From positions 1 to 28,386 of IMG/VR virus record IMGVR_UViG_3300009604_000056: 28,386 nt of DNA; one strand, written 5' to 3'. The position numbers were made by a program, and so were the translations under genes. Origin of the DNA: a virus. The notes under the pieces were generated by a model that was not told where the DNA came from, searched no databases, and saw only the letters and a list, made by a program, of their open reading frames with translations. Shown here one piece after another: positions 1 through 17,500 of this stretch; the stretch's first letter is position 1, and every line of letters starts with the position of its first letter.

Positions 1-109
1 CCGGGTAGAATCGTACCACCCAACCCTTTAAAGCCCGATATAGGCCCGCTATGAGCTTTTTTATTTGGCGGAATACCGTCGTTTCCTCTCCTGGGTCCCA
101 AACTTCCAT
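1..109 (-). CDS. Unknown protein, 3' end cut by window edge
   Basis: An open frame starts at an ATG (109-107) that shares its A with the TAA stop of the 62-residue gene upstream (TAATG), and it stays open for 36 codons to the window edge. The visible start reads MEVWDPGEETTVFRQIKKL, followed by a basic amphipathic stretch rich in Lys, Arg, Trp and Leu. The same TAATG coupling links the two genes upstream, which supports it as the next gene of the minus-strand operon. I do not recognise the family, and only the N-terminus can be read. Confidence 0.6.
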   Translation of the reverse strand, partial: MEVWDPGEETTVFRQIKKLIAGLYRALKGWVVRFYP

Positions 110-1501: not shown

Positions 1502-2009
1502 AGTTTTTCAGTTCTCTCATTGTTTGGATTATTTTTTGCGTATAATATACGTCTTCAGCATAAATTACAAGCGTTTCCGCAAGTGATTCCAGGTCCACTA
1601 TGTCATTGATATATTGTGATAATCTCCTCTCCCTGAAGGCACAATAATGGTGGCTATTGTTTAACAAATCAATATAGTAGGATATGGATTCACATTTGGT
1701 CTCAAAGATCCTAAGCCCCCAGCTCACATTAGGTTTATCAATGGGCTTTAGTTGATCATCAGACGGGTCAAATGTACGAATCCCCATAAGATTGTTGCCC
1801 TCAACGGCAAACCTGGATCTACCCCAATTGGATTCATGGATTGCCTGTGCGACTACCAAGTCCACAGGAATACGGTTCTGTTCCTCTTCCATGGAATTTA
1901 GGTGAATTGCGCAGTCCCGTACATCTTCAATGAATTCCTCACTGCTGGTGTAATCCATTTCCGGATTAAAGTTAAAACAGATTAATAGTACAGAGCACAT
2001 CCAGTTCAT
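1494..2009 (-). CDS. GH73/Bax-type glucosaminidase (peptidoglycan hydrolase)
   Basis: A 171-residue protein with the hallmark glucosaminidase block VAQAIHESNWGRS (residues 53-65), where E59 is the expected catalytic acid, followed by EGNNLMGIRTFD (70-81). Members cleave glycan strands of peptidoglycan. The ATG at 2009 has an AGAGG Shine-Dalgarno sequence and overlaps the endonuclease VII stop by four bases. The first 16 residues are hydrophobic (MCSVLLICF), perhaps a weak export signal or anchor; an internal Met18 is an alternative start. It lies in the replication operon, far from the lysozyme/holin pair at 13948-14564, so it may act in cell-wall penetration or as a second endolysin rather than the main lysin. 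Confidence 0.8.
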   Translation of the reverse strand: MNWMCSVLLICFNFNPEMDYTSSEEFIEDVRDCAIHLNSMEEEQNRIPVDLVVAQAIHESNWGRSRFAVEGNNLMGIRTFDPSDDQLKPIDKPNVSWGLRIFETKCESISYYIDLLNNSHHYCAFRERRLSQYINDIVDLESLAETLVIYAEDVYYTQKIIQTMRELKNYE

Positions 2010-2422
2010 GAGAATTTCCTCTTGTATTTTATGGCCCGTTTAAGTTCCTCAATATTTTCTTTAAACATACCAAATCCTAAATTATGTCTTTGGCACAGTA
2101 AACCACGGGGAATAAATTTTTTCTTTGAGTGGTCATGGTCAATCACCAGCTCATCACTATTACTTCTTCCATTTTTTCTGGTGGGTGCCTTTTCATATAT
2201 CACTTTAGGCCCGCACATATAGCATATGGATTTTTGTTTCAACCACCAGTCAGCTACTTCTTTTCCATGTTCACACTTGGTTTTAACATACTTTATATCT
2301 ATCCTTCCCTCTAAACTTTTTCTTTTCTTTTCCATGTATTTTTTACTTGCTCTACTGTGTGCTGCCTTACCCTTTTTTGTTTTCACGTATCTTTCCTGTC
2401 TAGCTCTAGAGTATGCCATCAT
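2006..2422 (-). CDS. Recombination endonuclease VII-like (T4 gp49 family)
   Basis: The 138-residue product has a basic, helical N-terminus (residues 1-60) and the endonuclease VII His-Me finger core: CYMC (C67, C70), ELVIDHDH (91-98) and PRGLLCQRHNLGFG (105-118). The family resolves Holliday junctions and branched DNA, often before packaging. The fourth zinc ligand, usually Cys in C-x2-C, appears here as His (C110-x2-H113). Two adjacent ATGs are possible: 2422 overlaps the polymerase stop, and 2419 forms TGATG with it and is better spaced from the GGTGG upstream. It sits directly downstream of the DNA polymerase, fitting a role in replication-recombination. Confidence 0.88.
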   Translation of the reverse strand: MMAYSRARQERYVKTKKGKAAHSRASKKYMEKKRKSLEGRIDIKYVKTKCEHGKEVADWWLKQKSICYMCGPKVIYEKAPTRKNGRSNSDELVIDHDHSKKKFIPRGLLCQRHNLGFGMFKENIEELKRAIKYKRKFS

Positions 2423-4263
2423 CCACCCCAGCTTTCACCAACATTTATGTCCACTTTTGATGGAACTTCCAATTTAACGCAGTCTTCCATAACTTCCTTC
2501 ACCTTTTTCCCTTCATTTTCATCCTTGACGGAACAATTTAATTCATCATGTACCTGAATATGTGGAATTATACCCAATTCATCATAAACATTAACCATGG
2601 CTTTCTTGGTTTGATCCGCCGCTGAACCTTGTATTAACCTATTTAAAGCCTTGTACGTTCCAGCTCTTTTTATGGCCATACCATACTCTGATTGTGCTTG
2701 ATTTAATGGCAAAGCTCTGTGTACACCCCATGACGTAGGTTCCCACAAATCAAATCTGCATTTACGGCCGAGTAACGTTCTAATAACACCTTTGTTATTG
2801 GCTCTGTTCATTACAATTTCAAGCATTCCTTTCATAAAAGGAACTTTGGTGTGGAAATCCTGTAACATGGATTTTGCTTCCTGTGGTTCAAGATCCAGTT
2901 CACGGGCCAGTTTGTTGTAACCCATTCCATACATAACACCTAGTCCGATAGTCTTCGCAAGGCGTCTCTCAACGCCTGCCATTTCGGCTGTTTGTTGATG
3001 AAAGTCGAGGTCTTTTTTATTATATGCTTCCTGTACTTCCCTAGAACCGGCTTGGTCGACGAGTCTTGCGAAATGCGTGAGCAACCTGGGCTCCTGCTGC
3101 GAGTAGTCCGCTTTAAGCCAGTATTTTCCCTGATCCGGAATGAATAGTTTCCTAAGTTCTTGCGCAAATTGGCCCCTGTTAGGAATCTGCTGTAAATTAG
3201 GATGATAGTAACTAAACCTGCCAGTGACAGTACCTCCACTGTCAGACCTAATTTGGTTAATGTGGGCATGTATCCTCCCTTCATGGGTGTGGTCCAAGAG
3301 TCCCTTTAAAAAAGTTCCCCTCAGTTTGTTAAGCTCACGTGCCTGCATAATCAATCTGGGAAGCTCGTGAGGGTGATCCGTCAAAAACATTTTAGTAAAT
3401 GAGGGAGCATTTGTCTTTTCCGTTCTTTCATACGGCAAATTCAATGAATCAAAAGCCTTGGAAATTGACGCCGCTGCCCATATCTCTATGTTAAGACCGG
3501 TTAAATCCTTGATTCTTTTCATCAATTTCTTTTCCTTATTTCTAAACTTGTCATTTAATCTTATGCAACCATCTACGTCAAATCTAACTCCACCCTGTGT
3601 CATGTTAAAAATGACATTAATTAACTTGCATTCTATGTCATAGATTGTGGTAAGATTATCCTTGACAATCTCCCAGGACAGTTTTTCATGCAATTTGTAC
3701 GTCAGGTCAGCGTCTGCCTCCGCATACTCCCCTACAAATTCCGCGGGTAGCTTATACATTTCTGACTTGGCATTCACGCCGAATGCATCCGCTGCTTCCT
3801 TAAGTTTTTGTTCGTTTTTGAATTCACCCAGATATTCATGCACAATGCTATTGAGTGTATATGAGAACCTATTCTCATCTATGAGAGCCGCAGCCACCAT
3901 GGTATCATGAATGCGGCCCTTGACTTCTATTCCAAGTGTTGAAAGCCATCCAATATCATATTGTGCATTGTGAAATATTTTTTCAATTGAATCATCTTCA
4001 CATATGGACTTAATATATTTGATAACTTTCTTTTCATCCATGTTTCCCCCACCGGAGTGGGAAATTGGATAGTAACCCTTGAAAGAAGCATTCGCCACTG
4101 CAATACCAATTACATAACCACGCTTACGAGGCCATCCTGGTCCTTCCTTGACAAGTTCAGTATCACAAGTTTCCAAATCAACCGCGACTTTACCCTCTAA
4201 TTTAGGAAATTCAGAGGGTGAAATCCAATTGGAATTTACAGTTTTAAATAGATCCGCTGTCAT
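2419..4263 (-). CDS. polA: DNA polymerase, family A, with 3'-5' exonuclease
   Basis: A 614-residue phage-size polymerase I without a 5'-3' exonuclease domain. Proofreading motifs: VDLET (D29, E31), HNAQYDIG (98-105) and YAEADAD (180-186). Polymerase motifs: TGRFSYYHPNLQQIP (347-361), motif A KADYSQQEPR (D386), motif B RRLAKTIGLGVMYG (433-446) and motif C VHDE (571-574). All catalytic residues are present. The position matching E. coli Phe762 is Leu441 (four after the motif B Lys437). Leu at this site has been linked in the marine-virus literature to slower, more accurate synthesis and often to temperate phages; that link is statistical, and nothing here shows lysogeny. The start overlaps the upstream DUF6378-type gene by 20 bases, with GGAGAG just before it. 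Confidence 0.97.
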   Translation of the reverse strand: MTADLFKTVNSNWISPSEFPKLEGKVAVDLETCDTELVKEGPGWPRKRGYVIGIAVANASFKGYYPISHSGGGNMDEKKVIKYIKSICEDDSIEKIFHNAQYDIGWLSTLGIEVKGRIHDTMVAAALIDENRFSYTLNSIVHEYLGEFKNEQKLKEAADAFGVNAKSEMYKLPAEFVGEYAEADADLTYKLHEKLSWEIVKDNLTTIYDIECKLINVIFNMTQGGVRFDVDGCIRLNDKFRNKEKKLMKRIKDLTGLNIEIWAAASISKAFDSLNLPYERTEKTNAPSFTKMFLTDHPHELPRLIMQARELNKLRGTFLKGLLDHTHEGRIHAHINQIRSDSGGTVTGRFSYYHPNLQQIPNRGQFAQELRKLFIPDQGKYWLKADYSQQEPRLLTHFARLVDQAGSREVQEAYNKKDLDFHQQTAEMAGVERRLAKTIGLGVMYGMGYNKLARELDLEPQEAKSMLQDFHTKVPFMKGMLEIVMNRANNKGVIRTLLGRKCRFDLWEPTSWGVHRALPLNQAQSEYGMAIKRAGTYKALNRLIQGSAADQTKKAMVNVYDELGIIPHIQVHDELNCSVKDENEGKKVKEVMEDCVKLEVPSKVDINVGESWGG

Positions 4264-4534
4264 TCATCTCTCCCGCTATTGCCATGTATGCCGCACCATC
4301 GACAAAATCATCTAGGTTAAAATCGCCCATGGTGGAGCGCGAAATCTTTAGTAAGCACATCATGACTGCTACGTCACCGGGTGTTATTTCCTTCATTACC
4401 TTAAGTTTGTCATCCAAAAATACACTCCATAAATCCGCTATCTGGGAATGATTTTTAAACGCATTTCCGTGAGTCCCTTCTCTTTTTTCATTAACAAGCT
4501 GAATTGCTTTATTTAATATTTCTTCTTTTTTCAT
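4244..4534 (-). CDS. DUF6378-like small helical phage protein
   Basis: A 96-residue, mostly helical protein. The pattern EEILNKAIQLVNEKREGTHG, a central DLWSVFLD, then PGDVAVMMCLLKISR (52-66) and FVDGAAYMAIAGE (77-89) matches the DUF6378 type found in many phages. I recall no proven activity for the family; the general look (acidic helices with a late Asp-x2-x-Tyr helix) invites comparison with MazG-type nucleotide pyrophosphohydrolases, but that is only an idea. It lies between helicase and polymerase with short overlaps. The start has an excellent AAGGAGG ribosome binding site nine bases upstream, so expression at replication time is expected. Confidence 0.75.
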   Translation of the reverse strand: MKKEEILNKAIQLVNEKREGTHGNAFKNHSQIADLWSVFLDDKLKVMKEITPGDVAVMMCLLKISRSTMGDFNLDDFVDGAAYMAIAGEMNDSGSI

Positions 4535-6051
4535 ATTATGAATCCTCCTTCTCTCTGTGGTTGTACAATATGTAAACTTTCTTTGGTGCGTGTTATTCCG
4601 ACATAGAATACACGTGACTCATCATCCGGATTTTGTTCCAGTGATTCCTGTGTCTTGCGTGTTAAATCCGTAAGAAGCATTACATTTTGAGCTTCCCCGC
4701 CTTTAGAGGCATGAATTGTGCTTAAGTTAATTTTAGGATCAACATTAAAGTTATTTCCATTTCTTTGTTCTATGGCTCTAAGGTATTCTTTATCCCTATT
4801 CCCAACTTTATCAAAAGCTACGTCCCAAGGCCTGCCTGCCATTAATAATCCATGGTGCATAACCAGTGATTCCATGTTATATTTACTTTTATCATCGGCA
4901 GTTTTCAATTGCTTATGGCCGTGTTCGATGCTTATCTTTGTTGACATATAAGAATAAATAGATTTAACAGAGCTCAAATCTATTTCTTTTTCCTCATTCA
5001 GCATTTTCCATGCCTGAACTGCATCCAATAATTTTTGAGATATTGGAAGCCTGTTGTTTCTCTTGTACAACAAACCTTCTGTTTTTACCTGTCGTTCCAG
5101 TTCATCTAAAAGATAGTTTGTTCTGGCCATTATCAACCACTCCCCATTTCTTAAATCAACACCCTCCGTAAATGCGTGGTACCGTATTTGGCCCATGTAA
5201 TCTCTGCCCTTCCATTCCTTTGGCCTTCTGTTACCGACACGTTGAATGATTTTATCGGCCATTTTATGAATTAATCTGGGGCATCTATATGATTGATTTA
5301 ATATAGTAAGGTTATCAGCTTTCATTTTAATGAAGTATTCTATGTCCGCTCCCGTCCATCTAAAAATAGCCTGATCATCGTCACCACTGATGTAAACTTT
5401 TTTAGCCTTACTCCACGCATGGGCAGCAACCGACCACTGCAACCAACTTAAGTCCTGTGCCTCGTCTATAAAAACAACATCCAATTGAGGAACATTACTA
5501 ACCTGAAGAAATAATTCCAGCATATCAGTGAAATCCAAAACCTCTCGTTTAGACTTATATTCCTCAAAAGAACGTTGAGCCCTTAACAATGCGTGCCAAG
5601 ATACATCAAGATTTGACTTATTGTAATGATCCTGTAAATCTAATCCTTTCATTCGTGATAGATTTATTTCGGTTATAAATCTGTTGTCGGTTGTTATTAC
5701 ACCACCAACATCTGAACCATCTGTTACTGAACCTAAATCCATCCCGTAAGCTTGAGAAAATTCCCTGTAATTGTCCCGAGACATTACTTCTGAAGTAGTA
5801 AGACCAAGTTGTAAAAATGCGAGAGAATGTAAAGTCCTGAAAAACGGTAATTGTTTATCCTCCAATTTAAATTTTATTTTTGCCCTTTCTTTAGCCTCAC
5901 TTGCGGCTTTTTTAGTAAAGGCAAAAAAACCTATTCTGTCCGGTGGTGTCCCATTGGATAATTCTTTCTCAACTAAATTCAATAAATTATGTGTTTTTCC
6001 TGTCCCTGGAGGACCTAATATAATATTAATTTCTGGTTTAGAACGGTGCAC
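4531..6051 (-). CDS. UvrD/Rep-like superfamily 1 DNA helicase
   Basis: A 506-residue SF1A helicase with all main motifs: Walker A GPPGTGKT (13-20), Ia FAFTKKAASEA (44-54), II FIDEAQD (194-200), III SGDDDQAIFRW (222-232), IV NQSYRCP (252-258), V STIHASKGGEAQNV (444-457) and VI VFYVGITRTKESL (481-493). It is shorter than cellular UvrD/PcrA (about 720 residues), mainly in the 1B/2B insertions. It likely unwinds DNA for the phage replisome or for repair. The start is GTG, 14 bases inside the primase gene, chosen because AAGGAG lies seven bases upstream and the nearby ATG is in the primase frame. With no DnaB-like protein in the window, this may be the replicative helicase (inference). Confidence 0.93.
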   Translation of the reverse strand: MHRSKPEINIILGPPGTGKTHNLLNLVEKELSNGTPPDRIGFFAFTKKAASEAKERAKIKFKLEDKQLPFFRTLHSLAFLQLGLTTSEVMSRDNYREFSQAYGMDLGSVTDGSDVGGVITTDNRFITEINLSRMKGLDLQDHYNKSNLDVSWHALLRAQRSFEEYKSKREVLDFTDMLELFLQVSNVPQLDVVFIDEAQDLSWLQWSVAAHAWSKAKKVYISGDDDQAIFRWTGADIEYFIKMKADNLTILNQSYRCPRLIHKMADKIIQRVGNRRPKEWKGRDYMGQIRYHAFTEGVDLRNGEWLIMARTNYLLDELERQVKTEGLLYKRNNRLPISQKLLDAVQAWKMLNEEKEIDLSSVKSIYSYMSTKISIEHGHKQLKTADDKSKYNMESLVMHHGLLMAGRPWDVAFDKVGNRDKEYLRAIEQRNGNNFNVDPKINLSTIHASKGGEAQNVMLLTDLTRKTQESLEQNPDDESRVFYVGITRTKESLHIVQPQREGGFII

Positions 6052-7534
6052 TTTCCATCTCCTTTATGTCAAAATCTGAATCTTGTTGCTGAAAAGCGGG
6101 AATACACCATGTATTTACCCCTCTTCCTTTTATCTTAAAGAACTTACTTTTTCCCTTAAGGTCCCTTAAACGCGCCACAATTTGACCGGTGTTATAATGA
6201 GTAAATTTATTTCTTATCAAATAATCATGAAGATCCTTTAACCTGAAATATGTTATTCCATTTTCAGTCCAAGGCTTGTGTAATAATAATTCATCTTTGT
6301 TTAAAGCCTGGGCACGATCAGTACAAAATTCCTGGAGGTGAACCTCAAACTGACCTGCCACAGACCCATCACTAGAAACCTCAATTTCAATAACATTGCC
6401 CATCAAGGTTCTCAGTGTCTCTTGCCAAAGATTTGATCTAAGTAATGGAAATGGAAAATTAAGAACATCCATACATCTTCTTTGGAATTTCTGTTGCATT
6501 TGTAATTCTTCTGTAGACAATTCTAAACGTTGATCTTCAACATCCAAAAACCAAATAGGGGGATCAGTGCATAATTTTGATAAAGACCCAAACTGAGGGG
6601 CTACATTATCCGAACCTATTCCAAATTTTCTGGTTTTGCAAACCGAAGCATTACAAAAGGAGGCAATAGGCTGTTCTTTGCACCTATATGCGTAATCCTT
6701 TTTTTCCAACTGCTTTATTATTGTCACAACTTCACTAGACGGAAGTGGTGGCGTCATGTGATTTCTGTTGTATTCTTCTATTAAAGTTGTCCAATTTTCT
6801 GGATCAAACTTACGTAAATAAACTCCAATGTTAAATAACCCATTATTTCTGGTTCCCTCCGGAAATCCTTGCGAGCACAAACTTTGTAAACAAGGTGGTC
6901 CATCCGCTATGACTTTATTAGATGTCTGCCTTGCAATTCTGTCTATATCAATAACAACATGTTTAGTGTATAACGATAAAAATTCATGGTACGTAGAATT
7001 CGTTCCATCATCGTTAACAGCACATCTTGAAGTATTTTTATAATTATAATAAGGTAAGTTTAAAAAATTACCGAGATCCCCTTTTTCTATTAGTATGCTC
7101 GATTGTTTGGGAAATATTTCAGCAGAGGAGTACCCTAAATCTGACGCAACCGATTTTAACTTCGATCGCATTATTTTTGCGGCAATTGGTTTAGCCACGA
7201 ATAAAAATAAATGGGCCCCACCGCTTTTAGATTTAAAATGTACTAGGGGTAATTCTAATTTTCTTATTTTATGAATTAATTTCTTATGATCAAGAGGATA
7301 GGTATCAATATCTATACATCCCCATATAACAGTGTTGTCTGCCATAATAGGAATGATCCCTAAGGAAGGTCCTTCCCCCTTAAGATGTTTTTCCCATAAT
7401 TCGTCAGTTATTTCTTTACGGACAATATAAGATTTTCCTTCCTGCTTACCGTCAGCACGCTCTCCATTGGATTGGTGCTGACCATAAGCTATGTCTAAGC
7501 CGGAAAATATCGCCTTAAATTTATCAACTTCCAC
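6038..7534 (-). CDS. Archaeo-eukaryotic-type (TOTE/AEP) DNA primase
   Basis: A 498-residue protein with the primase-polymerase (AEP) fold signatures: WGCIDIDTY (71-79) with the catalytic D75-x-D77 pair, KSKSGGAHLFLF (101-112) for the sGxxHxxxF nucleotide-binding motif, and AEIFPKQ (138-144). After it comes a PriCT-like helical region (about 210-280, PEGTRNNGLFNIGVYLR) and a cysteine cluster C-x8-C-x4-C near residues 287-303 that could bind Zn or an Fe-S centre. The C-terminal 150 residues are unassigned. It would make primers for PolA. No fused helicase domain is present, unlike many phage primase-helicases. GTG start with GGAGG four bases upstream. The gene is followed immediately by the SF1 helicase. 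Confidence 0.85.
   Translation of the reverse strand: MEVDKFKAIFSGLDIAYGQHQSNGERADGKQEGKSYIVRKEITDELWEKHLKGEGPSLGIIPIMADNTVIWGCIDIDTYPLDHKKLIHKIRKLELPLVHFKSKSGGAHLFLFVAKPIAAKIMRSKLKSVASDLGYSSAEIFPKQSSILIEKGDLGNFLNLPYYNYKNTSRCAVNDDGTNSTYHEFLSLYTKHVVIDIDRIARQTSNKVIADGPPCLQSLCSQGFPEGTRNNGLFNIGVYLRKFDPENWTTLIEEYNRNHMTPPLPSSEVVTIIKQLEKKDYAYRCKEQPIASFCNASVCKTRKFGIGSDNVAPQFGSLSKLCTDPPIWFLDVEDQRLELSTEELQMQQKFQRRCMDVLNFPFPLLRSNLWQETLRTLMGNVIEIEVSSDGSVAGQFEVHLQEFCTDRAQALNKDELLLHKPWTENGITYFRLKDLHDYLIRNKFTHYNTGQIVARLRDLKGKSKFFKIKGRGVNTWCIPAFQQQDSDFDIKEMESAPF
6059..6064 (-). promoter_or_regulatory. Ribosome binding site for helicase GTG start
   Basis: AAGGAG on the minus strand lies seven bases before the GTG at 6051-6049. 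It is inside the end of the primase gene and decides the helicase start. Confidence 0.7.
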
Positions 7535-7538
7535 TAAA

Positions 7539-7543
7539 CCTCC
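7539..7543 (-). promoter_or_regulatory. Ribosome binding site for primase GTG start
   Basis: GGAGG on the minus strand, four bases before the GTG at 7534-7532; no in-frame ATG is available nearby. Confidence 0.6.
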
Positions 7544-7562
7544 AGTTTAGAAAAAGATATAC

Positions 7563-8369
7563 CTAAAACGGTATATCTTCGTCGCTTTCTTTACTGTTTG
7601 ACTGTGGAGCCTCTTTTACAGGTTCCCCCTCAACGGTAGGTTTAGCTTCTACATCTCCTCTTGATGCTGCGGTTGAAAATGATTTTGCTTCATTATAAAT
7701 GTCAGCGTCTTCTACCTGTCCAGCTTTCTCAAGTTGATAACCAAACCAACTTCCGCGATCATTTGACTCACTAACTGTAGTGAGATTGTAGATCATTGCG
7801 TATGTTGGTGGAGTGAAACTTCCCGATGGGCCTTGAACTTTTTGGGTTAGCATCAAGCTGTTCCAGCGTCTGCTCTTTTTTAATTGAGTAGATGTCATGC
7901 TGATAACTGCTTGTGACCAATTTCCATCAGCTCCTTGAACCAAGACATAATGATATGCCGTAGTGGCAATGTAATTGCCATTCTCCAACACATCTTTAGA
8001 TGTCAACTGGTCGCGCTTTGTTTTAGACAAGATCCCACTGTCGGCATCATGTGCTTCTACAAATCCGCCACCGGATTCACGTGGTTTCCATTCCACGTAT
8101 CGTAGTTGGTAAAGGACAGGAATCACTTTAAGTGAATCACTGACTTCCTGCGAAACAGTATTGTAGAACTGTCCCACTTTTGCCCCTTCAACATGTTCCG
8201 CTTTTGATGGATTAAGCTGAGGGCTTGTTGTTTGTAGTATATTGATGTAAGGGATAGCGATATCTCTTGACAAGTCAAGATTGCCGAATCCACTCGCATT
8301 TTTTGAATCACTAGCAAGAACCGCTAGATCTAGTTTTGCCGCTTTTGCGACTTCTTTAGTTTGTGCCAT
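7563..8369 (-). CDS. Putative single-stranded DNA-binding protein
   Basis: A 268-residue soluble protein with a compact beta-rich region (about residues 35-225) and a disordered, acidic tail from about 230 that ends SDEDIPF. That tip matches the C-terminal protein-recruiting tip of bacterial SSB (DDDIPF), strongly suggesting a functional analogue. The body contains aromatic/basic patches such as RYVEWKPRES and STQLKKSRRWNSL that could contact DNA, but it is not a recognisable classical SSB OB fold. It sits just upstream of the primase and helicase in the replication operon. ATG chosen with AAGGAG nine bases upstream. The assignment rests on tail and context, not on a domain match. Confidence 0.65.
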   Translation of the reverse strand: MAQTKEVAKAAKLDLAVLASDSKNASGFGNLDLSRDIAIPYINILQTTSPQLNPSKAEHVEGAKVGQFYNTVSQEVSDSLKVIPVLYQLRYVEWKPRESGGGFVEAHDADSGILSKTKRDQLTSKDVLENGNYIATTAYHYVLVQGADGNWSQAVISMTSTQLKKSRRWNSLMLTQKVQGPSGSFTPPTYAMIYNLTTVSESNDRGSWFGYQLEKAGQVEDADIYNEAKSFSTAASRGDVEAKPTVEGEPVKEAPQSNSKESDEDIPF

Positions 8370-8383
8370 AAGGCCTTTCTCCT

Positions 8384-8932
8384 TTAATCTTTAATCGTTG
8401 TTTTTTGTCCTACGTAAGCTCCTAACAAGTCCATAGGCAATTGATTGCCTGCTTCATGTTGCTCACGTATAAATGCGCGAAGGGTGGAGGGTTCGACCCA
8501 CTCGCGTTGTGAAGATTGAAAACCCTTTTCATTTAAAGTGTTAATCAATCCTTTAGCTTTCTCATCTTCATCCCGTCCAAAGCTGCAAGAGACTTGGTTT
8601 TTTATTAAATCCCCAAATCCATTGTCCCGTAACCATGCAAACGCGGCACTTTTTTTAGTGTCCTTTATCGACGCCCCATAATAGTTACCTACTTTAAGAT
8701 GTCTGCCGTCTGCTAGTTTTAACTCTGATAACCCAACCTCAGCAAAAAGATTAGGTAAAACATTTTCTGATAAATGTTTCTTGTAATGTTTTTTCTTTTT
8801 TAGTTGATCTTCTATATCACTGATCTCTTTGTCCGTATCAGCAATGTCATTGGCTACTGCGCCAATCTTACCCATGTTGTCCTGGGCCGTGTTGCCCGCA
8901 TCTTGGGCCATTTGTCTTAATAGATCACTCAT
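8384..8932 (-). CDS. Unknown early protein with N-terminal coiled coil
   Basis: 182 residues. A helical, charged segment at about 25-55 (DIADTDKEISDIEDQLKKKK) predicts a coiled coil. The rest is mixed, with DGRHLKVGNYYGASIKD (75-91) and a C-terminus LLGAYVGQKTTIKD reminiscent of a shared end in many phage early proteins. Second gene of the leftward operon, overlapping the previous gene by eight bases and with AGAGG before its ATG. It may assist the replication proteins downstream, but I do not recognise the family. Confidence 0.75.
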   Translation of the reverse strand: MSDLLRQMAQDAGNTAQDNMGKIGAVANDIADTDKEISDIEDQLKKKKHYKKHLSENVLPNLFAEVGLSELKLADGRHLKVGNYYGASIKDTKKSAAFAWLRDNGFGDLIKNQVSCSFGRDEDEKAKGLINTLNEKGFQSSQREWVEPSTLRAFIREQHEAGNQLPMDLLGAYVGQKTTIKD

Positions 8933-9239
8933 TTTTACCTCTCAAGTCTATTTCTATGTCGTAATATTTCTTTTCATCACGGTCCCACTTCAGAACCTTG
9001 AATTTTCCTCTGTTTGCTTCGCTTACAACTGCTCCAGCAATTGCTATTATAGCAGGATCCCCTATCAAAAGCAAGTAGTCATCGTCACAAAATGTGGATA
9101 ACTCTTTTCTTAGCTTATGGGTAAGTGGTCCGGAGGATAGGACAATTTGTTTATTGTCAGGAAGTAAAATTTTTAAATCACCAAACTTCTCTGCCGATCT
9201 AACGTTTCTTCCCATTTCCTGTAAAACATATACTGTCAT
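8925..9239 (-). CDS. Unknown conserved-type early protein, first of operon
   Basis: 104 residues, alternating beta/alpha, starting MTVYVLQEMGRNVRSAEKF and containing DDDYLLLIGDPAIIAIAGAV (52-71) and a C-terminal KFKVLKWDRDEKKYYDIEID. It resembles a small protein type seen at the start of replication operons in marine phages, with no known function to my knowledge. The ATG lies 21 bases from the -10 of the leftward promoter, so it is the promoter-proximal gene. No DNA-binding helix-turn-helix or metal motif is visible. Confidence 0.8.
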   Translation of the reverse strand: MTVYVLQEMGRNVRSAEKFGDLKILLPDNKQIVLSSGPLTHKLRKELSTFCDDDYLLLIGDPAIIAIAGAVVSEANRGKFKVLKWDRDEKKYYDIEIDLRGKNE

Positions 9240-9250
9240 ATTTTTATTTC

Positions 9251-9279
9251 TTGACTTTCCTTATACACTATGATATAAG
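9251..9279 (+). promoter_or_regulatory. Rightward sigma70-like promoter (divergent region)
   Basis: TTGACT (9251-9256), 17-base spacer, TATAAG (9274-9279), with a TG one base before the -10 (extended -10). Predicted to start transcription near 9286 for the endonuclease V-like/SNF2 operon. It overlaps the leftward promoter over most of its length. Confidence 0.7.
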
Positions 9280-9288
9280 CTTTGTCAA
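9260..9288 (-). promoter_or_regulatory. Leftward sigma70-like promoter (divergent region)
   Basis: On the minus strand: TTGACA (9288-9283), exactly 17 bases, TATAAG (9265-9260), start predicted near 9253, 14 bases before the ATG of the first replication-operon gene. Both hexamers are near consensus. Its -10 lies inside the rightward promoter spacer and vice versa, so the two RNA polymerase sites should exclude each other. Confidence 0.72.
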
Positions 9289-9309
9289 GTAGAAAGTTAG
9301 AAATACAAT

Positions 9310-9792
9310 ATGAATATATTTTTTTTAAATGAAGACCCAGCTAAAGCTGCACGAGCACAGTGTGACAAACATGTAGTTAAAATGGTATTAGAAACTACAC
9401 AAATGTTGTCTACAGCAATTAGACGCCGTGGCTATGATGCAGGATATAAATCAGCTTATCCCAATCATCCCATGACAATATGGGTTGGTGATACCCGTGA
9501 TAATTTTTATTGGGCACTTTGTCACGCAGAAGAATTGTCTAAAGAATATACAGTTCGTTATAATAAATTTCATGCGTGTCAGCAAGTTATTAATGCTATT
9601 CACGAACTTTATCCAAGACTTTCGTCTTTTGATAATATTACTGATCCTCCACAGTGCATGCCAGATGAATTTAAACAAGATGATTTTGTAAGAGCATATA
9701 GGGATTATTATGTGCATAAAATTGGTCAATGGAAAAATCCACCAAAATGGTTTAAAAATTTAGACGCTGATCCGTATTACGCCAATGTATAA
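9310..9792 (+). CDS. Endonuclease V-like small phage protein (possible DNA glycosylase)
   Basis: 160 residues, a protein type widespread in phages, beginning MNIFFLNEDPAKAARAQ and followed by CDKHVVKMVLETTQML (18-33). Compared by eye with T4 endonuclease V (DenV), the D-x-H and the Glu seven residues later fall in the same relative places (H21/E28 here; H16/E23 in DenV), and the C-terminal KIGQWKNPPKWFKN resembles the Pro-Thr-Trp-Tyr end of DenV. The DenV Arg22 and Arg26 positions are Leu and Gln here, and residue 2 is Asn rather than Thr, so activity is uncertain. A pyrimidine-dimer repair role is therefore a hypothesis. First gene after the rightward promoter; it overlaps the helicase by eight bases. 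Stronger AT bias than its neighbour. Confidence 0.7.
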   Translation: MNIFFLNEDPAKAARAQCDKHVVKMVLETTQMLSTAIRRRGYDAGYKSAYPNHPMTIWVGDTRDNFYWALCHAEELSKEYTVRYNKFHACQQVINAIHELYPRLSSFDNITDPPQCMPDEFKQDDFVRAYRDYYVHKIGQWKNPPKWFKNLDADPYYANV

Positions 9793-11221
9793 ATTTAAAA
9801 CTAAACCGTATGAGCATCAAAAAGATGCTTTGAAAAAATGCTGGAATAAGGAATCTTTTGCCATCTTTGCCGAGATGGGAACTGGGAAAACCAAGATAGC
9901 ATTGGACAATGCGTGCATACTTTATAATAAAGGGAAAATTGACAGATTATTAGTGATTGCTCCAAAGGGAACGTACATGACGTGGGTAGATCAAGAAATC
10001 CCCACGCACGTTCCGGACTACATTGAAAAAAAAGTTGTGTCATGGAAACAATCAACATCCAGGAAATATCTCGATGATTTGGGATGGATGAAACAGCACA
10101 GCGGAGACATGGTTTTTAAAATAATGGTCATGAACGTTGAGGCACTCTCAACAAAAAAAGGAATGGAATTCGCGAAGATATATTTAATAGGGCGGTCCAT
10201 GATGATTGTTGACGAGAGCACCACCATTAAAAATCCAAAAGCAAAGAGAACAAAGAATATTTTAGGACTATCCAAGGAAACCAAATACAGAAGAATTCTG
10301 ACTGGATCCCCAGTGACACAGTCACCCATGGACCTCTGGTCACAGATGGATTTTCTTGATCCGGAAATACTGGGTCAGCAAAGCTACTACGCATTCAGAA
10401 CCCGGTACGCCGTGGTCATTACAGCGAACGCCGCAGGCGGAACGCACAAGTACCAGAAGATCGTCAAGTTCAAGAACCTGGCCCAACTGGGACAGCTTGT
10501 ATCACCCCATTCATACCGCGTGTTGAAGAAGGACTGCCTTGATCTACCGGACAAGGTATACACCAAGCGTGAAGTGGAACTGACGGAGGAACAGAACAAA
10601 GCGTACCGTGACATGAAAGCCAACGCCATGACAATATTAAAGGGAGAGTCACTAACCGCTGTCAATGTTCTGACACAGTTGATAAGACTGCACCAGATTA
10701 CGTGCGGTCACATGAAAACGGACAGCGGGGATACACTGGACCTTAAAAATAACAGGCTTGATGAATTGATGCAGATACTGGGAGAGACCACGGGAAAGGT
10801 AATCATATGGGCCAACTACATTCATGACATTAAAAGAATTGAAAAGGCCATTTCAGATGAATACGGATCAAGCTCATGCTGCACGTATTACGGCGCAACG
10901 GCAACGGAAGATCGGCAGAAGTGCATTAACGCTTTCCAGGGAAAGACTTCCATACGTTTCTTCATAGGAAACACCCAAACAGGTGGATACGGGATCACAT
11001 TAACCGCTGCTAGTACGGTCATATACTATTCAAACAATTATGATTTGGAAAAAAGAATTCAGTCAGAGGACCGTGCCCATAGAATAGGACAAAAGAATGC
11101 GGTACTTTATATAGATCTAGTAGCCAAAGGGACTGTGGATGATAAAATCATCAAGTCCCTTCGGAACAAGGTCAACATCGCCAAGGAAATCAGCGGTGAG
11201 GAACTTTCTAGCTGGATTTAA
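9785..11221 (+). CDS. SNF2-family (superfamily 2) helicase/translocase
   Basis: 478 residues, compact two-lobed SF2 ATPase: Q-motif-like YEHQ (9-12), Walker A EMGTGKT (30-36), Ia VIAPKG (57-62), motif II VDEST (142-146, instead of DEAH), III LTGSP (172-176), V NTQTGGYGITLTAAS (396-410) and VI QSEDRAHRIGQ (426-436), which is the SNF2 signature. Such enzymes move along double-stranded DNA and remodel recombination or repair complexes. The ATG overlaps the previous gene by eight bases. Its 3' end overlaps the opposing Hsp20 gene by 14 bases. Coupling with the endonuclease V-like protein points to DNA repair or recombination. Confidence 0.93.
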   Translation: MYKFKTKPYEHQKDALKKCWNKESFAIFAEMGTGKTKIALDNACILYNKGKIDRLLVIAPKGTYMTWVDQEIPTHVPDYIEKKVVSWKQSTSRKYLDDLGWMKQHSGDMVFKIMVMNVEALSTKKGMEFAKIYLIGRSMMIVDESTTIKNPKAKRTKNILGLSKETKYRRILTGSPVTQSPMDLWSQMDFLDPEILGQQSYYAFRTRYAVVITANAAGGTHKYQKIVKFKNLAQLGQLVSPHSYRVLKKDCLDLPDKVYTKREVELTEEQNKAYRDMKANAMTILKGESLTAVNVLTQLIRLHQITCGHMKTDSGDTLDLKNNRLDELMQILGETTGKVIIWANYIHDIKRIEKAISDEYGSSSCCTYYGATATEDRQKCINAFQGKTSIRFFIGNTQTGGYGITLTAASTVIYYSNNYDLEKRIQSEDRAHRIGQKNAVLYIDLVAKGTVDDKIIKSLRNKVNIAKEISGEELSSWI

Positions 11222-11621
11222 TTTTTATTTGTTTTGGTTTTTCGGATTCTGGAATTTCACGTTTATAGGTAACTTTAAGAAGTCCATCCTTTAGCTCCGC
11301 TCCATCAATTCTAATGTGTTCATGAAGTTTGAAGCTTTTTCGGAAAGTTCTATCCGATATTCCTTTGTGATAAAAGTCCGATTCGTGCTTGAGCTGCCCG
11401 TCGGATTTTTTTTCCTTACACCCCGAAACCTTTAAAGTTTGGTCTTTTACCTCAACTGTCAAATCACCCTCAGCGAACCCCGCAACGGCGAATTCAATGA
11501 CACCTAGGTCATTCTTTTCTCTTACGTTGTATGGTGGGTAGGTTGAGACTGTCCTGAAATTATCAAAAAAGTCATTGTTAAAACCAAGAAAATGGTTACG
11601 TATGATATCTAGCTCGTTCAT
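11208..11621 (-). CDS. hsp20: Small heat-shock protein Hsp20 (alpha-crystallin family)
   Basis: 137 residues: short N-terminal arm (1-28, FNNDFFDNF), alpha-crystallin domain (about 29-122) with FAVAGFAEGDLTVEVKD, YHKGISDRTFRKSF and the conserved ELKDGLLKVTYKRE, then a tail with the I-x-I oligomer anchor (IKI, 132-134). It is closest in style to IbpA/class A bacterial proteins. sHSPs hold unfolding proteins in an ATP-independent way; phage copies may protect virion assembly or host proteins late in infection. Last gene of the leftward late operon, AGGAGG before the ATG, and 55 bases behind the exonuclease gene. Confidence 0.95.
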   Translation of the reverse strand: MNELDIIRNHFLGFNNDFFDNFRTVSTYPPYNVREKNDLGVIEFAVAGFAEGDLTVEVKDQTLKVSGCKEKKSDGQLKHESDFYHKGISDRTFRKSFKLHEHIRIDGAELKDGLLKVTYKREIPESEKPKQIKIKSS

Positions 11622-11676
11622 ATTTACCTCCTGTTAAGCAAGATTTAGTAGGACCCATTACGGCATCCTGTATGTA

Positions 11677-12345
11677 TTATATAATAGTTTTCAGGTAAAA
11701 GTCAAGTGCTTTCATGAATTTTTCACCGGCGCGAATGAAATTGTCGCCTTTCAGTTCAAATTTCTGGAAAGTAAGGTCGCGTGAACACATAAAAATGACG
11801 CCCTGGTCAATTTCGGTGTTAAATATCTCGTTATGGGCCATGGCGTAAGCGGAAAGCTGCATAAGGTAGTCCTGCACCCACTCGCGCTTCTTTGGCCGAT
11901 TAGCCTGCTTAAAATCGATAATTGCGGGCCTTCCCTGGTACAACGCAATCATGTCAGCCGTTCCGGCGTATTTTCCTGGATAATAGAGGTTAACCTCCGA
12001 TCCCCATACGTCCGTGATGTCCTTCAGCCCTTCCTTCACTATGACTTCAGCCATTTTCTGGGCTGTTTTCCCTATTTCCGTTAAATCCTTGTATCCTTTT
12101 TTGTTCACTAAACGTTCTATATATAGGTGGAGCGCCGTTCCAATCTGGGTGGATTCACGCATTATTCGCTCCGCTTCTTTGTCCCCCACACGGTTGCGCC
12201 ATTTTTTCAGGAAGCTCTTGTCTTTCGCTTTTGAGAGAATGGTCGTAACGGACGGTAAGCTTTCACCGTCGGGTGTAAGGTATAAACGGGCTTCCCCGTC
12301 CTCCCTTTTCAATGATGAGTAATCATATTTCTTAATTAATTTCAC
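11677..12345 (-). CDS. PD-(D/E)XK exonuclease (RecB/Cas4/MGME1-like)
   Basis: 222 residues with the full nuclease pattern: GTALHLYIE (69-77), SEVNLYYPGKYAGTADM (116-132) with E117 and D131, IDFKQA (143-148) giving the D144-x-K146 core, and a QLSAY helix (163-167). Phage members act as single-strand exonucleases in recombination and end processing. Start is GTG with AAGGA three bases upstream; no in-frame ATG occurs before residue 62. Placed at the end of the late operon, away from the replication genes. Confidence 0.88.
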   Translation of the reverse strand: MKLIKKYDYSSLKREDGEARLYLTPDGESLPSVTTILSKAKDKSFLKKWRNRVGDKEAERIMRESTQIGTALHLYIERLVNKKGYKDLTEIGKTAQKMAEVIVKEGLKDITDVWGSEVNLYYPGKYAGTADMIALYQGRPAIIDFKQANRPKKREWVQDYLMQLSAYAMAHNEIFNTEIDQGVIFMCSRDLTFQKFELKGDNFIRAGEKFMKALDFYLKTII

Positions 12346-12367
12346 GGTTCCTTATATCACAAAAAGA

Positions 12368-12931
12368 CTAAGAAATCAAGCTAATTAATCCACCACTGTA
12401 TTTTTCAGGTTTTTTAAACGGAATAATTTTCGCCCCTTCTTTTTCATCCGCTAGTTCTGTTAATTCTTTTTCCAGTTTCTGATTTTGCAGTGCCATGTCA
12501 TACTTGAATTCATCTGTTTCTTTATACTTTAAAAAATCTTCATCGAAAGCCCTAATAAAATTGAAAGGTTTTTTCCTGTTCCCTTCTCTAATAGTAAAAT
12601 CCAGAAGCTTGGGCCATCCTAATTTTACATTAAAGGGATATTGTCCCTTTTCATGCTTAACATTGTCAAACACCCATCTTTTGAGTTTTATCGCCGCTTT
12701 GTCTTCGTATCCAATGTCCCGCAACTGTGGGGGTAAATCCCTTTCCCAGGCAAGTCTCTCACCTAACTTACTTATAAAAACATCGGCGTAGACTGGGTGA
12801 AGTTTCTTCATGACCTTCAGTAACGGAAGCTGCATGGAAGGAGAAAGGTAATCGAATATGGATCCAAGACCCTTTCCGAAACGCTCTCCCAATCTTAATT
12901 TAGGTGGTTTTAATTTTATTGGACTACCCAT
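12368..12931 (-). CDS. Unknown probable virion-module protein with GGLISLIS tail
   Basis: 187 residues, basic N-terminus (MGSPIKLKPPKLRLGERFG), a helical middle and an acidic helical region (about 145-170), ending GGLISLIS. That last octapeptide is almost the same as the ends of the gene upstream (GGLVSLVNG) and the 1079-residue protein (RGIISLVS). The start ATG overlaps the upstream stop by eight bases. No recognised family. Position behind the lysozyme and the shared tail suggest a virion or assembly-linked role, which is inference. Confidence 0.8.
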   Translation of the reverse strand: MGSPIKLKPPKLRLGERFGKGLGSIFDYLSPSMQLPLLKVMKKLHPVYADVFISKLGERLAWERDLPPQLRDIGYEDKAAIKLKRWVFDNVKHEKGQYPFNVKLGWPKLLDFTIREGNRKKPFNFIRAFDEDFLKYKETDEFKYDMALQNQKLEKELTELADEKEGAKIIPFKKPEKYSGGLISLIS

Positions 12932-13955
12932 TGACCAAACTCACTAACCCACCAGTTTTCTTCTTAAAAAGATCCATCTGTTTTGAAGGCAGTTCGCCTA
13001 TTTCTTCGCTGAGCATTTTATTTACCTTGGATTCAGAGTAAGGCTGCTTCGCAAGATCAGGATTTGCTTTCAGAAGAAGCCACTCCAGTCCTTTGTCACT
13101 TCCAGCCCTTAAACCCTCATCCGTTATACCGTACTGTTTTTTTAATTTATCGGATACATCCCAATTGAATTTTATTGCCATTTCCAATAATTCCTTTTCA
13201 CTCATTCCCATGGTTGTACCCAATTTTAACAGAGATTTCATCAATCCTGTATCATGCAACTTGGGTGTTCTAATCTTGATTCCTCCACCAGCAAGACCAG
13301 GTGGAGACCAATCATCATCTTTCCCGCCTTGAATTAGAGTAAATATTCCCTTCTTTTTTTCCTTTTCTATTTGTTCTTTTACAGCTTTATCATATCCTTT
13401 TGGATTTTCCTGAAATTCTGCCGGGCGTAAATGCTCTGGTACAAGTTCCCAGTTTTCCTCCACTTTTACGTAGGCATTTTCTTTTGGGTCCCATGTATAA
13501 CCGGCAAGGTCCTGTGCTTGTTGCCACTTTTCATATGTCATGTTGGGAAATTTTTGAGCCTGATCCCAGTCCATGTGTTGCCAGTCTTCTATTGTCACGG
13601 CCGGTTCTCCCTCTGTCCATTTATGTGTATGCTGAAGAGCGCCAGGATCTGTTCTCGCCTTGATCCAGTCCTCAACACTGAACCCAGCGGATATCGCGTC
13701 TTTCAAACGCAATCGCGCCAAAGTTTCCAGATCCACTTTGGATCCTATTTCGTCAGCTGTTATGCCAAATTCCCCCCTTGCTGTTTTTTCAAATATATCC
13801 ATTAAAACATTCTGAGGGTCATATGGTTTTGTAATACTCTCCACGACACCATCGGCTCCCCTGGTTTTGCTAATGAGATTGGTAAGCCATTCAATAGGTT
13901 TTTTTGTAAGGAGACTTAAGATTCCTTGAAGGTTAAATCTAGGTGTTTTAGGCAC
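12924..13955 (-). CDS. Unknown probable virion-module protein with GGLVSLVNG tail
   Basis: 343 residues. N-terminus MPKTPRFNLQGILSLL, a Trp/Asp-rich central region (about 110-170: DWQHMDWDQ, YEKWQQAQ), a Lys/Glu helix (about 190-205), a Gly-rich GLAGGGIKIRTPKL patch near 225, then helical modules, ending KKTGGLVSLVNG. I do not recognise the family. Start is GTG at 13955, overlapping the lysozyme stop by eight bases, with GGAG 13 bases upstream, a long spacing; no nearby in-frame ATG exists. Confidence 0.78.
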   Translation of the reverse strand: MPKTPRFNLQGILSLLTKKPIEWLTNLISKTRGADGVVESITKPYDPQNVLMDIFEKTARGEFGITADEIGSKVDLETLARLRLKDAISAGFSVEDWIKARTDPGALQHTHKWTEGEPAVTIEDWQHMDWDQAQKFPNMTYEKWQQAQDLAGYTWDPKENAYVKVEENWELVPEHLRPAEFQENPKGYDKAVKEQIEKEKKKGIFTLIQGGKDDDWSPPGLAGGGIKIRTPKLHDTGLMKSLLKLGTTMGMSEKELLEMAIKFNWDVSDKLKKQYGITDEGLRAGSDKGLEWLLLKANPDLAKQPYSESKVNKMLSEEIGELPSKQMDLFKKKTGGLVSLVNG

Positions 13956-14382
13956 AGTTTTTCATATGCTCCGACATTTCGTTAGCTCGATTTGGCGTTT
14001 GCTTGGCCCATTTGCTGTCAAGCATCTGAACGTGCGCCTCGAAATAATTTGGCGGATTTTCCTTAAGGGCTTTCCACATGTTCTTGAACTTGGAAACACC
14101 GTTTCCTCCAAGCTGAAAAATCATCTCACAAATTATGGATTTTGCATCGTCTGAAATTTCCAGTCCCTGGCACATGTCATGCGCCTGATCAATTGCTGAT
14201 TGTAAATCTTTTTCCAGAATGTCTTCCAGATATTCCTTGTCATATTTCTTTCCGTCTTCCCAATGGTCTTCCACACAAAGATGGCCGTAGCCCACGGTGC
14301 GTTTGGAAAGTGAGTCCAGATACACGTGGTCCTTAAACCCTTCGTGTTTCTTGACTGACTCTAATAATTTATCATAATTCAT
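13948..14382 (-). CDS. T4-type lysozyme (GH24 endolysin)
   Basis: 144 residues from the ATG at 14382, which shares its A with the TAA of the holin-like gene (TAATG). The GH24 catalytic triad is exact: E14 in KKHEGF, D23 in YLDS and T29 in RTVGYGH (E-x8-D-x5-T). It hydrolyses peptidoglycan between MurNAc and GlcNAc. No signal peptide, so holin-dependent release is expected. A longer GTG-started frame to 14445 exists but would lie inside the holin gene. Size is close to T4 lysozyme (164 residues). Confidence 0.95.
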   Translation of the reverse strand: MNYDKLLESVKKHEGFKDHVYLDSLSKRTVGYGHLCVEDHWEDGKKYDKEYLEDILEKDLQSAIDQAHDMCQGLEISDDAKSIICEMIFQLGGNGVSKFKNMWKALKENPPNYFEAHVQMLDSKWAKQTPNRANEMSEHMKNCA

Positions 14383-14564
14383 TACATCATCGCCGTGTAA
14401 ACGGCCTTGAGAATCAACGCCAGCACTCCGAATGAGACTGTCCACACAATCCTGAAGATGGTGTCAATTTTTTCAGAGATGTGGTGAATATGATTGTCCA
14501 GCTTCTGGTTAATCAACCTTAGTTCACCTGTAATCTTAATAATATCCTCACGGTTCTGTGTCAT
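14382..14564 (-). CDS. Holin-like small membrane protein (XhlA-like)
   Basis: 60 residues from the ATG at 14564: an N-terminal amphipathic helix/coiled coil (ITGELRLINQKLDNHIHHIS) and one C-terminal membrane segment (IVWTVSFGVLALILKAVY, about 37-54). This layout matches XhlA/haemolysin-type lysis proteins, and it lies directly before the lysozyme, coupled by TAATG. ATG preferred over the GTG at 14579 because GGAGG lies eight bases before it. Confidence 0.82.
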   Translation of the reverse strand: MTQNREDIIKITGELRLINQKLDNHIHHISEKIDTIFRIVWTVSFGVLALILKAVYTAMM

Positions 14565-14572
14565 TTTTTCTT

Positions 14573-14577
14573 CCTCC
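14573..14577 (-). promoter_or_regulatory. Ribosome binding site deciding the holin start
   Basis: GGAGG on the minus strand, eight bases before the ATG at 14564. It overlaps the alternative GTG at 14579-14577, which argues against that start. Confidence 0.7.
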
Positions 14578-14579
14578 AC

Positions 14580-17500
14580 CTAACTCACCAATGAAATTAT
14601 TCCTCTCTTGTCCATCTTTCGAGGGGCATTGAGGGGTTCAATCATTCCTCCGTCCTTTTGTCCGCCGTACTTTGAGGCGAGTGCCGCGTCAGTATTGCCC
14701 TGATACAGCCACCCAGCTGTATTAGGTGACATGGTTTGATTTCCATAAATGGATGATCCAGTAACACCATATCCACCCGCGTCTTCACCGGCAGCTTCAG
14801 GGGCATAGGTATCGGCCACAGGTGGCGCTTCCTCCCCTTTCATGTATTCAAATGGAAGTGTTCCTGGTTCCATAACTTTTGGAACATAAGGTGTTTCACC
14901 GGAAATAACTTTTTTTCCTAAATCATAAGCGGTATTCACTACACGCTCCATAGCGTCAGCTGATCTATTACCCCACTTATCGAGCATTGCTTTGTTTCCA
15001 CCTGTTTTTATAATTTGTTTTTGTGCATTTTCAAGTTCAGCCAGATCTTGGTCAAAAGATTTCCACTCATCCGGCATGTTTCTCATTAATCGAATGAGAT
15101 TCAAGGCACGAACGGTTTCAGGTAAGTTTGTATCAATTGCGTTTCTGTAGACGCGCATGTTGACAGGACTGGTCATGACTTTTCCACCATAACGAAGAGT
15201 CCACGCACCCATTAAAGGCCAGAACCACTGTCCACCAATCAAGCTTAATGCACCGGCAGTACCGGCACCAGTTCTTGCACCAGTTCCTAGAACCTGTGTT
15301 GGAAGCGCCGCATTTAAACCTGCTCTTACACCACCAATTGTCGCACGACGAGCCATGAACACACTCATTGAAGGTATTCCATTCTTGAAAACTTTTTCCA
15401 TAACATCCAGAAGAGACCTAAAATCATCAAGTTGCGGAAGCTTTCGAAGCTCCGTGCTTGCCATTGTTCCTTCAGGAAGGGCACCTTTGAACAGGTTAGG
15501 ATCAAATTCCTTTCCGTCTATTATTTTTACTGGTGAAGTTGAGCTGTCAAGTGCTTTTTCCCAGAAAGGTTTTACCTTAAGCGCCTTAGATGTTCTTGAA
15601 ATTCCAAGCACTTCACGAAGTTTTGCCCAGTTTGGTTTCATTATTCCGTCAACTTCTTTAATGTTTTGCTCAAATATATCTCGTAAATGAGTTCCAACGC
15701 CACGGTAGTACGCCTCGTCGCCCACTATGTTTTTTAATCTCAGTATTGATTCAGGATCACCGCTTTTTATCGCTGTCTTGAACAAGGACGCCGCTGCGCG
15801 TGTTGAATCATTACTAAGCTGCAATTCATATCCAAATTTGCTTACCTTTCCCGCAACTCGTCCTGCATCCGTTCCCCACATCAACAGTCCGTTGTTAATA
15901 AAGCGATCATAAGCCGTTAACGCCTTAACGACTTCCGGTGCCTCATACTCACTTCCTATTCGTGCAATGTCTGTATCCCACGCTTTGATGAGATCTGTTA
16001 CATCATCCTTGCTTCCCTTTGTTCCATATTCCAGTGCTTTTGATAAATCCTTTAATGATTCAGGATCGCGTGCAACGGACCCCAACCCATTTTTCCCTAC
16101 AAAGAAGTCCAATTCCTTTCTCATGTTGAACATCTGACGAACGTTCTTTCCGCTTGAATCGCCTGACAGTTGTTCCAGAAGTTTTACCCATTTTTTATTT
16201 GTAGCGTTTGGAACGATTTTTCCGGCTTCGCCTTTTGCCCATGTGCTTTTCATGCTGTTGAGAATGTTTCTTGCTATCATCCGAACGGCCTGATCATTAA
16301 TGATGTCACCATATGCATCACCAGCTTTCAATACATCCTGTTCCAATTTTAATGCCTCTTTCTGGAACCATCCAAATTTTTTGGTGGAGAGAACCTTGTA
16401 TGCATCATCCAATTCCGCCATTGATGCGTAAGGATTCAACCGTCCAAGCATGTTATCTGACAATTCACCATAAAATTCACCACGTTGTCCCAGATGTTCC
16501 TTTATCCATTTTCCAATCCACGGTATCCTGCCAAGCATCGGTTCCACTCCACTTACAAATCCAGCGCTACTGATGTGGTGTTTTCCTAGCCCCGTTCCCG
16601 GAACCATATTGTCTTTGACAGCGGGACCCAAAAGATTAGCAAATCTAGTTCGAAGTAAATTTGTCAGAGGACCGCCAATGAAAGGAACATTTAATGTTTC
16701 TGCTTGGGATACTTTTTTCATTAAATCATCCCCGCCAAACTTCTGAATCAATTTCATTTCCTCTTCGATTAATTGTTGTGGGTCTATTGCGCCAGCTCCT
16801 GGCCCCTTCTTACCCATTCCAAATACACCTTTACCAATGGTAGATTTTAATCCATAGTACAATGGACGCGCACCAAAGAAAGCGGTTGAAATGGAAGCAT
16901 CAAGAATGACATCCTTCTTTAAACTTTCCCATCGTTCATCAAATGCAGGACGGTTAATTCCTCGAGGCCCGAATGTCAATGCATCAGGAACTATTTCAGA
17001 AACTTTTTTCTTCAGTGATGAAGGATCATCTTTTAAATTTTCTTTTGCCTTTCCGGCTCCATTCATCAGGTCAAGCATAACATCATAACCAAAATCAGCG
17101 GCACCAACTGCCGCAGCTCCACCAATGACTGCTCCACCAGCTTTAAGCCACCAAGGACCTTTAGCGCGAGCAAATCCTGTTGCCGCACCCTTTCCCATGT
17201 TTTTGATAAAATTTTTAGCCAACAATGCTTCACCAAATGAATATCCCTTGCTCATTCCAAACAGTCCACCAATTGCCTCTGATAAATATTCTATTTGTGG
17301 ATAAGGATTTGGAGATGATGACCACAGTCCTGAATCATCACGAAGAATGTAAGCTTCCTTGCTTACCTGTGGATTAAGATCAAAGTCAGTTAAGCCTGAT
17401 GCTTGTAACATCTGGTCTTTTGTCTGCAACGCAAAATCCAGAATTTGTTCATTTCCTGTTTTTTCATACCCATCTCTCGCCTTGTGAAAAACGTCTATAA

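Follow-up and report, generated by a model that had tools for sequence, protein, structure and literature searches.

How two divergent operons of a marine phage are started from one short gap is the question raised by the window analysed here, the whole 28,386-nt stretch of IMG/VR record IMGVR_UViG_3300009604_000056. The intergenic gap between the divergent genes (9240-9309) measures 70 bp and holds a 38-bp element (9251-9288, both strands) with a -35/-10 pair on each strand. The rightward promoter consists of TTGACT (9251-9256, +) and TATAAG (9274-9279, +), separated by 17 nt, and as read from the sequence its -10 is preceded by an extended -10 TGA (9271-9273, +). The leftward promoter consists of TTGACA (9283-9288, -) and, again after 17 nt, TATAAG (9260-9265, -), without an extended -10. 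All hexamers, spacers and strands had been placed to the base by the first-pass annotation. Counted from the sequence, the two promoters match the consensus at 10 and 11 of 12 positions. The minus-strand -10 lies inside the plus-strand spacer (9257-9273) and the plus-strand -10 inside the minus-strand spacer (9266-9282), and the two -10s do not overlap each other. The element is at the same time an imperfect inverted repeat with 16-nt arms (9250-9265/9274-9289), 75% complementary, in which CTTGAC faces GTCAAG.

Taking the purine nearest to 7 nt from the -10, the rightward transcript is predicted to start near A9287 with a leader of 23 nt (9287-9309, +). The leftward transcript would start near 9252 and carry a 13-nt leader (9240-9252, -), in which no Shine-Dalgarno is evident by sequence. 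By arithmetic the predicted starts are 33-35 bp apart. The two promoters do interlock, but 'face-to-face', as they were called initially, is a loose term, since the predicted transcripts diverge and do not overlap. Since each strand has its own -35 and -10 spaced by 16-18 nt, and the two promoters share DNA upstream of divergent genes, 9251-9288 belongs to the broad kind of overlapping divergent promoters.

The leftward promoter is predicted to drive GP32 and the replication genes, the rightward one the genes at 9310-9792 and for SNF2. GP32 (8925-9239, -; PF23992, Pam3_gp32; predicted CARF/SAVED-like fold) is followed by a DUF7307 gene (Pam3 gp33-like; 8384-8932, -), a Pam3 gp34-like gene (7563-8369, -) and genes for a primase-like protein (AEP-TOTE; 6038-7534, -), a UvrD-like helicase (4531-6051, -) and a family A DNA polymerase (2419-4263, -). 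On the other side lie a pyrimidine dimer DNA glycosylase-like gene of the T4 endonuclease V type (9310-9792, +), absent beside the element in most relatives, and the gene for a SNF2-like helicase (9785-11221, +); these rightward genes end against an HSP20 gene on the minus strand. These gene contents support the first-pass annotation, which named a replication operon and an endonuclease V-like/SNF2 operon. DNA-metabolism genes are present on both sides of the element. In 131 of 140 unique homologous regions (see below) the right operon starts with SNF2 and lacks the glycosylase gene, which comes first in the other nine. Because SNF2 starts the right operon in most relatives, the left and right operons appear to be partners rather than alternatives.

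Just upstream of the HSP20 gene, TTGACT-N18-TATAAT (11 of 12) is found at 11676-11705 on the minus strand. Phage DSL-LC04 (L162) carries between primase and helicase a small protein annotated as RNA polymerase sigma-G factor (7240-7497); the primase and helicase genes of the window overlap, so that there is no room there for such a gene. Rfam gave no match in the window at gathering scores.

The two promoters were scored together as hexamer matches of 24 against a sigma-70-like consensus. The window pair scores 21. When its 110-nt region was shuffled 5000 times with dinucleotides preserved, at least 21 was reached twice. No other pair in the 28,386 bases has a score of 21 or more, three others scoring 19, and none of 50 shuffled windows contained such a pair. 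Taken alone, without the relatives, these window statistics are suggestive. A stock promoter scan lists neither promoter because it accepts only -10s with a final T, and both of these finish in G; within the stretch it lists instead TTGTCA-N16-TACAAT on the plus strand (9282-9309).

Related loci were gathered by GP32 and by the 38-bp pattern, the best 80 loci per fetch being taken as a sample; four of the gathered records were the window and three annotated phages. Examination of 264 records, many of them repeats of one contig, gave 241 regions beside the SNF2/glycosylase start (22 records lacked the right gene start and one lacked GP32). These regions reduced to 140 unique ones and to 53 non-redundant representatives with little 8-mer overlap. 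When facing pairs with spacers of 16-18 nt and a span of 30-42 bp were scored, an interlocked pair with at least 20 of 24 matches was found in 43 of the 53 representatives and 113 of the 140 unique regions among these sampled loci, and in 34 of 44 representatives once the nine found by pattern scan were removed. At least 21 matches were reached in 25 of the 53 representatives; among shuffles, at least 20 was reached in 20 of 10,600 and at least 21 in none. With wrong spacers of 11-13, 13-15, 19-21 and 22-24 nt, only 3, 3, 6 and 1 of the 53 reached 20. The ten representatives below 20 are L127, L134, L256, L341 and L346 (19 each), Pelagibacter phage HTVC027P (18), L088 (17), and DSL-LC04, L264 and L266, which all score 0; HTVC027P and DSL-LC04 are isolates. 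The comparison with relatives proposed in the first-pass annotation thus came out in its favour, hexamers and spacing being conserved at the same intergenic region. It is this conservation, not the window statistics, that decides against chance.

The spacing was also examined with the -35s anchored and the mean -10 match scored at spacers from 9 to 25. On both strands the match peaked at 17, with values of 4.32 and 3.92 in the 113 of 140 regions that have a strict facing TTG pair; the same peak at 17 was found in 43 of 53 representatives (3.88 and 4.19). For spans of 33, 35, 36 and 37 bp the maximum is less distinct or falls at another spacer. An earlier spacer-free test (spacers 10-24), in which 15 of 53 representatives, 40 of 140 unique regions and 5 of 10,600 shuffles met all conditions, is weak because AT-rich halves give equal-scoring -10s at other spacings. 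Among the 128 unique regions with a pair, a 17-nt spacer is found on the GP32 side in 110 and on the SNF2 side in 101, in a search limited to 16-18. Of the 24 representatives with span 38, a set selected on its hexamers, 13 have a TGn extended -10 on the GP32 side, 17 on the SNF2 side and 9 on both. The interlock is looser in 10 of 43 regions, whose -10s do not lie wholly inside the opposite spacer.

The divergent helicase/GP32 order is also present in HTVC027P, 023Pt_psg01 and DSL-LC04. In ten loci that were read, the element stays beside the SNF2/glycosylase start when other genes enter on the left, and GP32 is at least 140 bp away in 12 of 140 regions, including 023Pt (158 bp). Genes inserted directly beside the element, on either side, were seen in the window (9310-9792, +) and in L087, L127, L135, L139, L149, L153, L155, L157, L158 and L160. 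Left-inserted genes mostly bring a Shine-Dalgarno-like AGAAGGA, and GP32, when first, is without it in the close relatives of the window. No SNF2-GP32 junction was found in the inspected stretch of KPP12 (Pbunavirus, with gp34 relatives), and no facing TTGAC pair was seen by eye in the inspected stretch at the ends of HTVC023P. A literature search that also covered Pbunavirus, including KPP12, found no mapped start sites for any of these phages.

An idealised 38-bp pattern, TTGAC-N5-TTATA-N8-TATAA-N5-GTCAA, was scanned in 2.9 million IMG/VR contigs and found in 24 stretches, 23 of them between GP32 and SNF2. GP32 at these 23 loci is 46-100% identical to that of the window, and four carry the window's own element. 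Two control patterns, the letter-reversed palindrome and the same arms placed 4 bp further apart, gave no match. The 24th stretch (L185, 13768-13805) is a near-perfect palindrome (95%) on a phage contig without GP32 or SNF2 matches. In bacterial and archaeal genome contigs the pattern occurs in 12 stretches, with mixed contexts by crude ORF reading. Five of these are in Treponema (L351, L352, L355, L357 and L358), and two share the element in one Poribacteria assembly (L354 and L356); recurring in similar or identical form within these groups, the pattern is perhaps a repeat element there.

The first gene on the left, GP32, belongs to a family with hundreds of relatives in IMG/VR. A model from a 24-sequence alignment had a mean pLDDT of 85.5. 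The best PDB match in Foldseek was a viral SAVED ring nuclease (E 4.2e-3), with none at 1e-3 or better. In a second structure comparison, 49 of the 50 matches listed (Z 6.4-8.4) were CRISPR, CBASS, SAVED or ring-nuclease proteins by name, among which we take Csa3, Csm6, Can2, Cam1 and Cad1 to belong; the remaining one was a Vibrio cholerae protein without such a name. A PDB sequence search with the GP32 profile gave IscB, not a CARF protein, as best match (E 0.14), and PADLOC found no match for the first three leftward proteins. The CARF/SAVED-like fold suggested by the model is a lead only, because Z scores near 8 may mean merely a common arrangement and sequence searches lend no support. On this basis GP32 would be a candidate counter-defence protein, either a ring nuclease or a cyclic-nucleotide sponge. 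In 58 of 128 unique regions the predicted start lies 0-2 nt before the in-frame GP32 ATG, from which it is likely that the GP32 mRNA is leaderless in those regions. In L170 (6716) the GP32 ATG overlaps the opposing -35 (GTCAATG).

As for function, the element is probably a mirror-image pair of sigma-70-type promoters that shares host RNA polymerase between the two operons, rather than a switch. Host RNA polymerase would dock on one 38-bp site in either orientation, transcribing the replication operon leftward in the one and the glycosylase/SNF2 operon rightward in the other. A bound polymerase would exclude a second one, each -10 lying in the spacer of the other promoter and each predicted start in or beside the -35 of the other. 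Mutual exclusion from the overlap is a fair inference, polymerases at overlapping promoters in general being described as mutually exclusive (PMC12825309; PMC4207663). With two good, similar promoters and no known regulator, firing would alternate and the output ratio of the operons would be roughly fixed. Use of sigma-70 polymerase, the start positions and even sharing are likewise inferred. The promoter scores are alike, with means of 10.5 and 10.6 of 12 in the 43 representatives; the two sides are equal in 16, differ by 1 in 15 and by 2 in 12, a difference that the cut of 20 itself limits to 4. The related phage HTVC027P lacks a gene for RNA polymerase and is said to depend on the host enzyme, and its early genes are all of unknown function, according to its transcriptome paper (PMC12753301); its annotated helicase and primase would then fall in a later class. 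The term 'early', used in the first-pass annotation for one of the operons, is therefore a tentative label. The main text of that paper contains no mention of gp01, gp04 or gp87 (PMC12753301).

It is possible, though less probable, that the promoters merely share space to save DNA, with exclusion so rare as to have no effect and no selection for balance or for switching. The genome is compact, with 70 bp in the gap, and in E. coli the five natural bidirectional promoters that were tested all had a basal activity too low for competition (PMC12825309), so that exclusion may not matter in practice. When one -35 was strengthened there, however, the opposite transcript was greatly reduced (PMC12825309), and both -35s of the window element are good, unlike in the weak E. 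coli cases. Moreover, 43 of 53 regions retain the overlap even though the genes lie at varying distances from it and additional genes have entered on either side, so that there was opportunity for the two promoters to separate.

Improbable is a palindromic operator, at which a dimeric phage or host regulator would bind the inverted repeat and control both operons, the promoters being incidental or covered. The imperfect dyad with CTTGAC/GTCAAG arms would suit such a site. When the halves of 46 distinct 38-bp elements were compared with re-paired halves, the hexamers were slightly more self-complementary within a sequence (0.82 and 0.94 against 0.78 and 0.89; the observed value was reached by 7 of 500 re-pairings for the -35 and by none of 500 for the -10). 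This slight excess may reflect shared ancestry, or it could reflect a true symmetric constraint or binding site. Outside the hexamers, however, complementarity between halves was at chance, both at the three positions between hexamers (0.304 against 0.325 re-paired) and in the centre (0.495 against 0.538). The arm distance varies as well: in the 128 unique regions with a pair the span is 33 bp in 14, 34 in 29, 35 in 3, 36 in 4, 37 in 22 and 38 in 56; among the 43 strong representatives, one gives 39. Neither symmetry beyond the hexamers nor a fixed arm distance, as an operator would have, was thus found, and moving the idealised arms 4 bp further apart left no match in IMG/VR. The GP32 model resembles CARF/SAVED proteins; its listed relative Csa3 is a transcription factor, but was matched at the CARF part. 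Two real overlapping promoters are the better fit: the span drifts while the 16-18-nt spacing is retained, and outside the hexamers there is no more symmetry than chance would give, so that the symmetry is that of two promoters.

Slightly less probable still is the switch read into the element at first, in which transcription would be directed first to one operon and afterwards to the other, by polymerase occupancy or by a factor acting later. The overlap implies exclusion, and at bidirectional promoters activation in one direction can bring repression of the opposite one (PMC12825309). Overlapping promoters make a switch, however, if their strengths differ and a regulator affects them differently, as set out in the study of pLS20 (PMC4207663). 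Here the scores are alike on both sides, the operons have partner functions, and no regulator was named among the window proteins scanned; the similar scores and the lack of a known regulator favour sharing of polymerase over switching. Chance hexamers in AT-rich DNA are hardly credible: single matches mean little, given 47 promoter-like sites of the stock scan in positions 1-16000 against a shuffle mean of 36.4, but conservation in relatives, shuffles and control patterns refute this reading for the interlocked pair, which is not chance.

A bolder and rather doubtful extension of the preferred polymerase-sharing reading is that of a 'mirror promoter', a complete sigma-70 promoter that comprises -35, -10 and in many cases an extended -10, reads alike both ways, has long been kept in marine phages and, as a one-site, regulator-free splitter, fixes the operon ratio by polymerase exclusion, launching in many relatives a leaderless CARF/SAVED-like message. 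All 24 hexamer positions match in L169, L170 and L179. If the idea were true, an anti-defence gene may be among the first products in many relatives. The natural relevance of polymerase competition at overlapping promoters is at issue here, the five E. coli cases tested having been too weak at base (PMC12825309). The window element offers two good promoters of similar score, long conserved and with many natural variants (spans of 33-38 bp, varied hexamers), so that in vitro experiments could address the question directly. The element also serves to mark the replication block in this group of marine phages.

Among known systems, the bidirectional promoters of E. coli and other prokaryotes (Warman, Grainger and colleagues; PMC12825309, PMC10268837) are likewise short stretches with divergent starts, often between divergent mRNAs, to which polymerase cannot bind in both orientations at once. 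In them the -10 is shared, the starts lie most often 18 bp apart, with 10 and 23 bp also seen, and the promoters were weak in all five cases tested (PMC12825309). The window element differs in having separate -10s, two good -35s and predicted starts about 33 bp apart (from 71 less the span when both spacers are 17 nt; about 33-38 bp for the elements as a whole), and so falls outside the shared--10 class with starts 10, 18 or 23 bp apart (PMC12825309). The Pc/Pr promoters of pLS20 are likewise overlapping and divergent, with polymerase on one at a time, but there a switch arises from promoters of unequal strength, one strong and one weak, together with RcoLS20 as regulator and with DNA looping (PMC4207663); the window element has similar scores on its two sides and no known regulator. 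Phage divergent control regions such as PR/PRM of lambda are named in the same paper (PMC4207663). They likewise serve two phage operons in opposite directions from one region. The lambda promoters, however, are set apart from each other and are run by a repressor, and none is evident at the window element. No title or abstract describing this arrangement in phages was found in the open-licence literature. The same gene order around the locus is found in HTVC023P-type pelagiphages (PMC9599517, PMC12753301), a group with a mean G+C of 42.1% to which HTVC027P belongs (PMC9599517); in HTVC027P and 023Pt_psg01 the helicase is divergent from the GP32/primase block, HTVC027P keeping only a weak pair (18/24) and 023Pt_psg01 one of 20/24. 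The window element is a variant of the known overlapping divergent or bidirectional promoters.
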